Assembly (NCBI RefSeq): GCF_014077625.1
Contig: NZ_JACFXU010000014.1
Location: 806,001-870,000 of the forward strand
From: Sediminihaliea albiluteola
GTDB taxonomy: Bacteria; Pseudomonadota; Gammaproteobacteria; Pseudomonadales; Halieaceae
Reading direction: 5' to 3'
DNA length: 64,000 nt
Below are positions 15,860 to 19,685 of the stretch, one piece after another. The notes beneath the pieces are model-generated. The model saw nothing but the letters and a program-made list of their open reading frames with translations. It made no database searches and had not been told where the DNA came from. The position numbers and the translations under genes were made by a program. Every line of letters begins with the position of its first letter. The first letter of the stretch is position 1.

Positions 15860-16714
15860 TTAAGCAGCGATTGCGGCGCGCAATTTTTTCATCGCGTTCT
15901 GTTCTAGCTGGCGAATGCGCTCTGCAGATACGCCATAGTGGCTAGCCAGCTCGTGTAGCGTGGCCTTTTCCTCTGCCAGCCAACGCTGGGCTAGGATATC
16001 GCGGCTACGCTCATCTAAATCTGCCAAAGCCATATGCAGCTGCTGCTCGCTATTAGCCTGCCAATCGCTGGATTCCACAGCTTCTGCTGGGTCGGAGCGC
16101 TGATCTTCTAAGTAGTACTGAGGCGCATGCCAAGCATCATCGTCATCACTGTCTACCGGCGAGTCAAAAGCGACATCGCGGCTGCTCAAGCGTCCTTCCA
16201 TACGCTGAACTTCGCTGACATCTACGCCCAAATCTTCCGCCACAGCGCGAGTCTCTTCAGCACTGAGCCAAGCCAGATCTTTTTTGGCACTACGCAGGTT
16301 AAAGAACAGCTTGCGCTGTGCCTTAGTTGTGGCCACTTTTACGATGCGCCAGTTACGCAGAATAAATTCGTGCATTTCAGCTTTGATCCAATGCACCGCA
16401 AAAGACACCAAGCGCACTCCCTTTTCAGGGTTAAAGCGCTTAACGGCCTTCATCAAACCGACGTTACCTTCCTGAATCAAATCGGCCTCAGCCAAGCCAT
16501 AACCGGTGTAGCTGCGCGCAATGTGAACTACGAAGCGCAGATGTGACATCACCAGCTCGCGGGCTGCTTCTACATTGTCGTTGTAGTACAGGTCCTCGGC
16601 CAATTCCCGCTCTCGCTCCGGAGTCAGCAAGGGAATTCTGCTTACGGCCTGCACGTAGGCCCCAAGATTCGCTCCCGGTACCATCTGGTCTACAGGCTGT
16701 AGGGTTGTATTCAT
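15860..16714 (-). CDS. rpoH: RNA polymerase sigma-32 (heat shock)
   Basis: Sigma factor directing RNA polymerase to heat-shock promoters. The 284-aa protein has region 2 with DLIQEGNVGLMKAVKRF and the core-binding segments, the RpoH box QRKLFFNLR near residue 135 that separates it from other sigma-70 proteins, and a region 4 helix-turn-helix at the C-terminus (GVSAERIRQLEQNAMKKL). The ATG has GGAG 8 bases upstream. A perfect CIRCE operator lies 31-57 bp upstream, so HrcA repression is expected. It lies 135 bp downstream of ftsX in the same direction. Confidence 0.97.
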   Translation of the reverse strand: MNTTLQPVDQMVPGANLGAYVQAVSRIPLLTPERERELAEDLYYNDNVEAARELVMSHLRFVVHIARSYTGYGLAEADLIQEGNVGLMKAVKRFNPEKGVRLVSFAVHWIKAEMHEFILRNWRIVKVATTKAQRKLFFNLRSAKKDLAWLSAEETRAVAEDLGVDVSEVQRMEGRLSSRDVAFDSPVDSDDDDAWHAPQYYLEDQRSDPAEAVESSDWQANSEQQLHMALADLDERSRDILAQRWLAEEKATLHELASHYGVSAERIRQLEQNAMKKLRAAIAA

Positions 16715-16744
16715 ATGATGGTCTCCATAATCAAGCCGCCAAGT

Positions 16745-16771
16745 TTAGCACTCCTGATATTAGAGTGCTAA
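16745..16771. promoter_or_regulatory. CIRCE element (HrcA operator) upstream of rpoH
   Basis: Perfect 27-bp match to CIRCE: TTAGCACTC, nine bases, GAGTGCTAA, with both 9-bp arms exact. It lies between ftsX and rpoH, ending 31 bp before the rpoH start codon. CIRCE is the binding site of the heat-shock repressor HrcA, normally in front of groESL or hrcA-grpE-dnaK. No hrcA gene is in the window. Confidence 0.93.
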
Positions 16772-16849
16772 TCCTGCAAAAGTTCCCTGATAGGCTCTAA
16801 ATAAACAGAGAATATTCATTATTTATCAGTGGCTTAAGCTACTAAGGCC

Positions 16850-17827
16850 TCAGCGCGGCTCAATCGCTCCAAGATGGCGCGATACCGCCAGCCAAGCACC
16901 GATCAGACCCAGAGCTCCACCGAGTAAAACCAGCTGTAAACTGCCAATTAAGCCGATCCCACTCAGCTGGAAATTGCTTTGGTATAGGCTAGCTAAATTG
17001 CTCACCGGTTGCTCCAAAAAGAACAGCGCCGCCAGCACTAGCAGGGCAGCAATAAAGCCACCGCCCACGCCATACCATAGACCAGTGTAGAGAAATGGCC
17101 TGCGCACAAAGGCATTACTGCCGCCCACTAGCTTGACGATAATGATCTCATCGCGGCGGTTTTCAATTGCCAAGCGAATAGTATTGCCGAGAATCAGCAC
17201 CACCCCGAGCACTAAAACGCCGGCCAAGCCCAGCACTAGGCGGCGACTCAAATCCATCAGGTTATTTAAGCGCTGTACCCAAGCCATATCGACAACCGCC
17301 TGCTCGACGGGCTGCAGTGCCAGTAGCTCAGCTTGTAAAACTGAAGGCTCAACACCCGTAGCGGGGCTCACTAACAGCAGGTGCGGCAGGGGGTTCTCAT
17401 CGAGACTAGCCACCACATCAGTAAAACCAGAGAGCTCGGCAAACTCTTCCAGCGCGGCAACTTTATCCACCAGTACTGCTTCGGCCACATCGCCGCGCTC
17501 CTGCAGCTCTGCTTGCAGGGCTTGGGCGGCCTCCGCCCCAGTAGATTTCAGCAAAAATAGCGATATTTGCGCCGGACTGTCCCAGCTACCACTGACTTCG
17601 CGGGCATTATCAAGGGCCACACTCAAGGCCGTTGGCAGGGCCATTGCAATCCCAATTACCAGCCAGGTCAGCAGACTTGAACCAAGATTGTCCAGCACTC
17701 GGCGCAAGCTATCGGCGGCCGACAAACTGTGGTGATCGCGCCAGCTGCGATAGCGGTCGAGAAAACGCGCTCGACTCGTGCTAGCACCCTCGCGCCGCTG
17801 GGCCGCACCAGAAGCTTTAGCTCTCAC
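16850..17827 (-). CDS. ftsX: Cell division protein FtsX
   Basis: Inner-membrane partner of FtsE; the complex activates septal amidases through EnvC. The 325-aa protein has a basic N-terminus, a first membrane helix near residues 50-72, a periplasmic domain, and three further helices (about 195-220, 245-270, 290-315). It overlaps ftsE by 4 bp. The order ftsY-ftsE-ftsX-rpoH is the standard gammaproteobacterial arrangement. Confidence 0.96.
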   Translation of the reverse strand: MRAKASGAAQRREGASTSRARFLDRYRSWRDHHSLSAADSLRRVLDNLGSSLLTWLVIGIAMALPTALSVALDNAREVSGSWDSPAQISLFLLKSTGAEAAQALQAELQERGDVAEAVLVDKVAALEEFAELSGFTDVVASLDENPLPHLLLVSPATGVEPSVLQAELLALQPVEQAVVDMAWVQRLNNLMDLSRRLVLGLAGVLVLGVVLILGNTIRLAIENRRDEIIIVKLVGGSNAFVRRPFLYTGLWYGVGGGFIAALLVLAALFFLEQPVSNLASLYQSNFQLSGIGLIGSLQLVLLGGALGLIGAWLAVSRHLGAIEPR

Positions 17828-18486
17828 GAGGCAGCTCCCAGCAAGCGCCCGTCGCGCAGGGTTAAAATCCGATGCTGCATACGGGAAATCAGAGCCAGAT
17901 CGTGGCTAGCAATCAGCACCGTCACCCCCACTTGGTTAAAAGCTTCAAATAGCTGCATAATTTCCGCCGATAGCGCGGGGTCTAAGTTACCTGTGGGCTC
18001 ATCCGCCAACAGAATACGCGGCCTAGCCACTACCGCGCGAGCAATACCCACCCGCTGCTGTTCACCGCCTGACAAGGTAATAGGTAGCGCCCGCTCCCGG
18101 GACAATAAGCCAACTTTATCAAGAGCCGCCCGGGTACGACGGGCCACCTCGCGGTGATCGTAGCCGGCGATGATCAGTGGCAGCGCAACGTTGTCGAATA
18201 CCGTCCGATCAAACAATAATTTGTGATTTTGAAAGACCACGCCAATATTGCGGCGGTGCCGCGGGATACCCCGCGAGGAGACCTTGGCCAAGTCTTGCCC
18301 ATCCACTATCACCTTGCCGCGGGTAGGCCGGTCCATCAGCATGATCAACCTGAGCAGCGTACTTTTACCGGCGCCAGAATGACCAGTGAGAAAAACCAGC
18401 TCGTCACGGGCGATATCTACGCTCACTTCGCGCAGGGCGTCATGGCCCTCCTCGTAGCGCTTAGTTACCCGCTCAAAACTGATCAT
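17824..18486 (-). CDS. ftsE: Cell division ATP-binding protein FtsE
   Basis: ABC-type ATPase, 220 aa, driving FtsX at the division septum. Walker A GHSGAGKST near residue 35, signature LSGGEQQRV near 138 and Walker B ILLADEPTGNLD near 158 are visible. It starts within 4 bp of the ftsY stop and ends over the ftsX start, so the three genes are translationally coupled. Confidence 0.97.
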   Translation of the reverse strand: MISFERVTKRYEEGHDALREVSVDIARDELVFLTGHSGAGKSTLLRLIMLMDRPTRGKVIVDGQDLAKVSSRGIPRHRRNIGVVFQNHKLLFDRTVFDNVALPLIIAGYDHREVARRTRAALDKVGLLSRERALPITLSGGEQQRVGIARAVVARPRILLADEPTGNLDPALSAEIMQLFEAFNQVGVTVLIASHDLALISRMQHRILTLRDGRLLGAAS

Positions 18487-19685
18487 GCTGCCCTGTCGTC
18501 TCGCTCAAATAGTGCGCGAATAAAGGGCTCTGCTTCAAATGGCCGGAGGTCTTCAACCGCCTCCCCAACGCCAATGAAACGGATCGGAAGGCCCAGCTTT
18601 TTGGCGATGGCAAAAATCACCCCACCTTTAGCAGTACCATCCAGCTTGGTCAGCGCAAGGCCAGTCACACCAACAGCCTGCTGGAAATGACCTGCTTGGG
18701 ACAGAGCATTCTGACCGGTACCCGCATCCAGCACTAACATCACCTCGTGCGGAGCCTCCGGATCTAGCTTGCGCAGGACTCGCACCACTTTCTTCAGTTC
18801 TTCCATCAGGTGATCTTTGTTGTGCAAGCGCCCCGCCGTATCGGCAATCAGCACATCTGTGCCTCGAGACTTTGCCGCTTGCAGCGCGTCAAATAGTACC
18901 GAAGCACTGTCCGCGCCGGTGTGCTGAGCAATCACTGGCACATCATTGCGCTCACCCCAAACTTGCAGTTGCTCCACCGCAGCTGCGCGGAAAGTATCCC
19001 CAGCCGCCAGCATCACCGAGCGCCCCTCACTGAGGTAGCGGCGCGCCATTTTACCAATGGTGGTGGTCTTACCTACTCCGTTGACGCCCACGACAAGGAT
19101 CACAAAGGGTTTGTGACCACTTACGTCCAAGGGTTTCTCACAAGCCACCAGCAGATCCTGCAGTTCTTGCTTAAGGGCCTGCTCCAAGGCCTCAGGCCGG
19201 GTCAGTTCCCTGCGCGACACTTGCTGAGTCAAGCGGTCAATAATATCTACCGTGGCATCTACACCCACATCGGCTAACAACAAACGCGACTCGAGCTCTT
19301 CGAGCAGCTCGTCGTCAATTTCTTTGCTGCCCAGGAACATGCTGCCCAGTCCCTGCACCAAATTATCACTGGTGCGACCGAGACCGCGGCGCAGGCGGCG
19401 GAAAAAGCCTGCTTCAGCCTCTTTGTCTTGGGCCTGCTTGGGCTTGGCTTGTGGCTCAGCTGGCGCCTCAATGGGTGGGGGCTCAGCAGGAGGCTGTGGC
19501 ACCTGCGCTGCAGCAGCAGGTACCGGCGCCTGCTCAGGAACTGACTCAGAGGGCCTATGGCCGGGCTCCACCACAGGCTTTTCAAGCGCATCAGTACTAG
19601 CGGCGCTGTCTGCTGTAAGCTTTGAGTCGGACTCAGCGGTGACCGGCGCTTTAGCGGCGGTTTTTTTACGTCTAAAAAACTTCAT
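18483..19685 (-). CDS. ftsY: Signal recognition particle receptor FtsY
   Basis: GTPase receptor for SRP that delivers nascent membrane proteins to SecYEG. The 400-aa protein has an acidic, Pro/Ala/Glu-rich N-terminal A domain (about 1-95), then the NG domain: G1 GVNGVGKTT near 195, DTAGRLHN (G3) near 280 and TKLDGTAKGG (G4) near 345. It is divergent from rsmD, the usual neighbour. Confidence 0.97.
   Translation of the reverse strand: MKFFRRKKTAAKAPVTAESDSKLTADSAASTDALEKPVVEPGHRPSESVPEQAPVPAAAAQVPQPPAEPPPIEAPAEPQAKPKQAQDKEAEAGFFRRLRRGLGRTSDNLVQGLGSMFLGSKEIDDELLEELESRLLLADVGVDATVDIIDRLTQQVSRRELTRPEALEQALKQELQDLLVACEKPLDVSGHKPFVILVVGVNGVGKTTTIGKMARRYLSEGRSVMLAAGDTFRAAAVEQLQVWGERNDVPVIAQHTGADSASVLFDALQAAKSRGTDVLIADTAGRLHNKDHLMEELKKVVRVLRKLDPEAPHEVMLVLDAGTGQNALSQAGHFQQAVGVTGLALTKLDGTAKGGVIFAIAKKLGLPIRFIGVGEAVEDLRPFEAEPFIRALFERDDRAA

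Follow-up and report, generated by a model that had tools for sequence, protein, structure and literature searches.

The 64,000-nucleotide stretch of Sediminihaliea albiluteola DNA under study (the window) carries, in one direction on the minus strand, ftsY (18483–19685, TIGR00064), ftsE (17824–18486, TIGR02673) and ftsX (16850–17827, TIGR00439), followed by rpoH (15860–16714). The last of these encodes a sigma-32 protein of 284 amino acids (TIGR02392 equivalog, 401 bits against a cut-off of 323) that was 91% identical, over the best segment, to RpoH of Parahaliea mediterranea, and a likely ribosome-binding site for it, GGAG, was read from the sequence at 16723–16726 on the same strand. Within the 135 bases that separate ftsX from rpoH, a pattern scan of the window detected a palindrome at 16745–16771, TTAGCACTC-CTGATATTA-GAGTGCTAA, that matched the operator pattern TTAGCACTC-N9-GAGTGCTAA with 0 mismatches (i.e., at 18 of 18 arm bases), which makes rpoH a predicted member of the HrcA/CIRCE regulon. 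The CIRCE consensus used was the form printed in PMC545781. This predicted HrcA operator, which is not assigned to a strand and is conserved before rpoH, was the sole site with three or fewer mismatches in the window (shuffle mean, 0.01). It lies 31 to 57 bp before the rpoH ATG, and the exact CIRCE that a previous, sequence-only reading of this DNA had placed there was recovered at agreeing coordinates, ahead of an rpoH gene supported by TIGR02392.

Three places with three or fewer mismatches to CIRCE were noted in a scan of the whole genome (3.3 Mb, 98% complete), i.e., those before rpoH (0 mismatches) and groES (1 mismatch) and one that lay inside a coding sequence (C5:1130680, 3 mismatches) and was treated as a chance match; the reversed-pattern control gave no place in the genome. 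Credible CIRCEs were found only at rpoH and groES, the latter site marking groESL as a CIRCE-bearing operon. The hrcA gene was present and complete (TIGR00331, 336 bits, cut-off 197; PF01628, 210 bits) and was followed by grpE and dnaK, both named by eye, but had no CIRCE of its own, the best candidate there having nine mismatches; an operator at hrcA itself is common in this regulon but not essential. Since CIRCE occurs at rpoH and groES and not at hrcA, the predicted regulon consists of rpoH and groESL. The sequence-only reading had named absence of hrcA as the finding that would overturn its proposal of an HrcA brake on sigma-32; the genome search that it suggested instead returned hrcA and, before groES, a further CIRCE. 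Also present was rpoE (TIGR02939, 318 bits, cut-off 236), so that the genome encodes the sigma factor expected for the sigma-E type rpoH promoter described below; the frames after rpoE were judged by eye to resemble rseA and rseB.

Conservation of the operator before rpoH was evident in the family, the order and the class. In the family sample of 140 genomes, CIRCE at two or fewer mismatches was detected in 136 and rpoH at E ≤1e-70 in 132. The places of sites were available for 41 listed family genomes, that of S. albiluteola included, 40 of which had rpoH; one of these (G037) was left out since only 25 bases of contig precede its rpoH match, and CIRCE preceded rpoH in all 39 assessable genomes among the matches listed. 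Of 293 genomes from the order, 75 carried hrcA, including 63 from outside the family, 61 of which had rpoH. Among the matches listed, CIRCE lay before rpoH in 55 of these 61 genomes and in 17 of 18 families, with 39 sites exact, 11 having one mismatch and five having two. The class sample comprised 166 genomes, mostly one per family; CIRCE at one or no mismatch was found in 121 of these, with places listed for 35, and among the matches listed rpoH was identified in 33 of the 35 and was CIRCE-linked in 30 of the 33. Thus, comparison of rpoH promoters among relatives, another step proposed in the sequence-only reading, indicated that CIRCE is kept. The accompanying statement that HrcA/CIRCE and sigma-32 usually form separate circuits fared less well, as the present locus does not stand as an exception; a CIRCE at rpoH was the rule among those examined relatives that carry hrcA.

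No listed CIRCE preceded rpoH in six of the 61 order genomes and three of the 33 class genomes. Degenerate sites were recognised in four of these exceptions, with two mismatches in G573 (L242), three in G167 (L194), three in G205 (L243) and four in G352 (L246), and no CIRCE before rpoH was seen on reading the sequences of G242, G292, G445 and G570, while the region upstream of rpoH in G319 was cut by a contig end. Genomes G242 and G292, which belong to the same genus, both carry hrcA and a single CIRCE located elsewhere, and here the rpoH site seems to have been lost alone. Two rpoH-like genes each were noted in G090, G142, G352 and G451. In a further set of 80 named loci, kept from at least 592 confirmed stretches and labelled by record title, CIRCE with 0 or 1 mismatch was present in all 12 of the loci kept that had Halieaceae-type labels, including records of Luminiphilus and Halioglobus, which we take to belong to the Halieaceae. 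CIRCE was likewise present in a record of Ketobacter and in another titled 'Gammaproteobacteria bacterium', a Pseudomaricurvus record had a site with three mismatches and a Gilvimarinus record one with four, and a credible rpoH CIRCE was present in none of the 38 records labelled Pseudomonas among the named loci kept.

The distribution of CIRCE followed that of hrcA. Thus, with kinship ignored, CIRCE was found in 73 of 75 order genomes with hrcA (PF01628) as opposed to 17 of 218 without it, as counted by eye from genome lists, and, again with kinship ignored, in 113 of 119 as opposed to 8 of 47 class genomes. The discordant genomes were those with CIRCE-like sites and no PF01628 match (17 from the order and eight from the class) and those with hrcA and no CIRCE within the mismatch limit (two and six, respectively). 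Eleven of the 17 order genomes in the former group came from families with hrcA elsewhere, and five of these 11 were under 90% complete. Four genomes with CIRCE and no PF01628 match (G224, G276, G328 and G347) were 92 to 97% complete, and hrcA may be lost, split or unassembled in these.

Closer reading of the palindrome showed that it shares bases with two putative promoter signals. Sigma-E promoters have the consensus elements GGAACTT and TCtaA or TCtgA with a spacer of 15 to 17. On the minus strand of the window, a -35 element of this type, GGAACTT, was noted at 16780–16786 and, after a spacer of 15, a -10 element, TCTAA, at 16760–16764, the TC of which lies in the left arm of CIRCE and the TAA in the CIRCE spacer. 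This GGAACTT-N15-TCTAA was the only strict sigma-E type match in the window, and the same scan picked up TGAACTT-N16-TCTGA before E. coli rpoH as a positive control. A scored form of the motif (at least five of seven bases of GGAACTT with AAC fixed, a spacer of 15 to 17 and TCnnA) was sought in 134 of 140 rpoH loci (30 from the family, 80 named and 30 from the order), the six left out being five that could not be placed by the RpoH codon motif and one that was too short. It was found in 62 of the 70 rpoH-linked CIRCE loci versus 2.0 expected from shuffles that, here and for all motif expectations below, keep base composition only, related genomes not being independent. The motif began 15 nt before CIRCE in 44 of the 62 loci and 16 nt before it in 18, and this fixed offset places the -10 at the border between arm and spacer in all 62. 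The remaining eight CIRCE loci lacked the motif and were counted against reading the site as a composite promoter.

In an alignment on the rpoH strand, the GGAACTT element just ahead of the left arm was common to the loci, and the CIRCE spacer began with TAA in 46 of 65 distinct loci (i.e., the 70 minus those with identical promoter sequence) and with nAA in 55 of the 65, as compared with none of 10 groES-linked CIRCEs. These 10 groES loci, which were recognised among 31 examined and all came from the family, also contained no sigma-E type motif at CIRCE (0/10). In a class set of 40 stretches, 30 of them linked and the others unlinked or without a listed CIRCE, with some from the order or family, CIRCE at two or fewer mismatches was present in 32; of these, 24 contained the sigma-E type motif versus 1.8 expected, at the overlapping register in 17 and elsewhere in seven, and eight lacked it.

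The second signal, TGCTAAACT at 16742–16750 on the minus strand, consists of bases from the right arm of CIRCE plus the three that follow and resembles an extended -10 element of the conserved form TGCTA[AG]nnT. This form occurred in 64 of the 65 distinct rpoH-linked CIRCE loci as opposed to 0 of 10 groES-linked ones. Because TGCTA belongs to CIRCE itself, only the bases after the arm count as independent evidence, and the third of these was T in 64 of 65 rpoH-linked loci. A sigma-70 promoter scan of 16600–17000 found no promoter, the scan being blind to extended -10 promoters that lack a -35 element. The sequence-only reading had recognised the operator but had missed the two promoter-like signals, one of sigma-E type and one an extended -10, that have bases in common with it.

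Loci lacking CIRCE often retained one or both promoter signals. The sigma-E type motif was present in 40 of 64 such loci versus 1.4 expected, and TGnTAnnnT in 28 of 58 versus 5.0 expected, its position falling within one narrow range in 24 of these; that no more than 28 of the 58 keep the extended -10 was counted against the composite reading. At a stricter threshold, 25 of the loci without CIRCE had the sigma-E type motif; measured from a codon shared by the RpoH genes, it lay 238 to 247 bases upstream in 20 of these 25 and 239 to 247 bases upstream in 46 of 51 CIRCE loci. In four loci without CIRCE (L079, L080, L084 and L113), CAGTGCTAGACT, a sequence close to the right half-site plus extended -10, was retained. 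The simplest reading of these results is that the loci would share one homologous rpoH promoter region and that the palindrome would accompany HrcA. Retention of part of the right arm by some loci without CIRCE, along with the sharing of arm bases with the sigma-E type -10 and the extended -10, might also be expected if the match consisted of promoter elements only, with HrcA uninvolved and the palindrome coincidental. This is barely conceivable, however, as the needs of the promoters cover only TC and TGCTA rather than all 18 bases, and as CIRCE tracks hrcA and has its other copy at groES.

Scarcely more credible is that the inverted repeat folds into a hairpin in the rpoH leader RNA, acting in stability or as a thermosensor, and does not serve as a DNA operator. 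Pairing of the arms was seen when a leader fragment of 116 nt was folded (MFE, -31.1 kcal/mol), but the fold was unexceptional (z, -1.35), 19 of 200 shuffles being as good, and the association of CIRCE with hrcA also speaks against a leader hairpin. Moreover, both predicted promoters would start inside or after CIRCE, near 16753 for the sigma-E promoter and near 16735 for the extended -10 promoter, which would leave the left arm outside the transcript.

A different promoter context was noted at groESL. A sigma-32 type site followed the groES-linked CIRCE in nine of 10 loci versus 1.2 expected, including that of S. albiluteola itself (L002, 1501–1570), where the site starts 33 bases after the start of CIRCE. 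HrcA would thus be paired with sigma-32 at groESL, and its partners at rpoH would be sigma-E and the housekeeping form. CIRCE was found before hrcA in none of the 27 placed loci from the window's order (L004 and L147–L176; four of 31 were unplaced), and in the class it was found just before hrcA in 12 of 32 genomes among the matches listed. In the window's order, HrcA seems, from these sequences, to lack autoregulation or to have lost it, while the rpoH site persists. General control of hrcA by sigma-32 was not supported (4 of 27 loci versus 2.5 expected); S. albiluteola hrcA had one weak sigma-32 type site (10/13).

These findings make it likely that the palindrome functions as an HrcA operator and overlies two rpoH promoters that themselves overlap, one dependent on sigma-E and the other a housekeeping promoter of the extended -10 type. 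The sigma-E -10 would straddle the left arm and spacer, and the housekeeping -10 would start in the right arm. In S. albiluteola and in most of the sampled relatives with hrcA, the HrcA site lies on the predicted rpoH start signals, so that two stress circuits commonly depicted as separate are probably wired together. The GroE chaperonin is described as keeping HrcA active until it is titrated by misfolded protein, and HrcA as binding over core promoters (PMC6032397). In P. aeruginosa, the AlgU-driven promoter P3 is described as the sole promoter from which rpoH is transcribed during heat shock (PMC13104619) and, in Vibrio alginolyticus, sigma-E binds the rpoH promoter (PMC4890791). In the predicted circuit, GroEL would keep HrcA active as long as chaperonin is free, and HrcA would block RNA polymerase at rpoH and groESL; occupation of GroEL by misfolded protein would lead to release of HrcA, whereupon sigma-E-dependent and basal transcription of rpoH could proceed; and sigma-32 would then raise chaperone levels, re-arm HrcA and close a negative loop. 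If HrcA occludes the rpoH promoters in this way, synthesis of sigma-32 would be gated by sigma-E or basal drive together with chaperonin load, i.e., sigma-32 output would need envelope or basal drive plus loss of the cytosolic brake. The serial link put forward in the sequence-only reading, in which HrcA brakes rpoH and a shortage of chaperone releases it, holds as the best inference, backed by conservation of the site and its co-occurrence with hrcA.

Sigma-32 is also under translational control, and HrcA might conceivably bind yet matter little, with translation, chaperone sequestration and proteolysis setting sigma-32 levels and CIRCE only trimming basal rpoH mRNA. That the activity and stability of sigma-32 in E. 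coli depend on GroELS and DnaK (PMC6032397) fits such an arrangement, which is nonetheless unlikely here, as the operator has few or no mismatches in many families and is tied to hrcA, and such conservation argues for a selected effect.

Extension of the operator-over-promoters reading to the class is less secure, although we lean slightly toward an ancestral, class-wide HrcA brake on sigma-32 synthesis. Operator and rpoH promoter would have merged into a single composite element and, with the arms supplying bases of both the sigma-E -10 and the extended -10, one repressor would exclude two forms of polymerase. Lineages that lost hrcA would have lost the palindrome and kept the promoters, so that the textbook circuit would be derived. 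We know of no hrcA in Pseudomonas. Sigma-32 control is usually modelled on organisms that lack HrcA; should HrcA gate rpoH in hrcA-bearing bacteria throughout the class, a single promoter would receive input from both cytosolic chaperonin load and envelope stress, and many of these bacteria would possess, in their heat-shock response, a transcriptional layer that is missing from current models.

What is new here is the anatomy, i.e., a palindrome that shares bases with promoter signals; first sight of a link between CIRCE and rpoH is not claimed. A survey of gamma proteobacteria by Permina and Gelfand in 2003 may already list some rpoH CIRCEs from this group, and a study of Geobacter sulfurreducens RpoH is said to have appeared in 2007. 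In the portions available of PMC3989490, PMC3224663, PMC11764788, PMC3135505, PMC13104619, PMC4890791 and PMC6032397, CIRCE at rpoH was not reported, and no overlap of CIRCE with a sigma-E signal or an extended -10 was found in the accessible HrcA, CIRCE and rpoH literature, in which subscription journals were thinly covered. The closest parallel is G. sulfurreducens, one of the genomes surveyed in PMC545781, in which an exact CIRCE was predicted at -51 of rpoH (Table 8 of that paper). As in the genome studied here, an exact CIRCE at rpoH is accompanied by a groESL operon with CIRCE and by hrcA. This organism differs in being a Deltaproteobacterium and in that its hrcA gene has a CIRCE of its own, as opposed to 0 of 27 placed loci in the window's order, and the available text of PMC545781 describes no overlap of the Geobacter rpoH CIRCE with a sigma-E promoter.

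The promoter itself is of a familiar type. A sigma-E promoter of the same kind precedes rpoH in E. coli, where the motif also lies in the gap between ftsX and rpoH, and in P. aeruginosa (sigma-E/AlgU, P3; PMC13104619). In contrast with S. albiluteola, E. coli has no CIRCE at rpoH, the best match there having eight mismatches and the control genome containing no PF01628 match, and the 38 Pseudomonas-labelled loci among the named loci kept likewise contain none. Finally, the proposed mode of repression resembles that of Bacillus subtilis and Helicobacter pylori, in which the core promoters are covered by CIRCE, or by operators resembling it, and HrcA is tuned by GroE; the targets described for HrcA in those bacteria are chaperone operons (PMC6032397), whereas the predicted target here is the heat-shock sigma factor itself.
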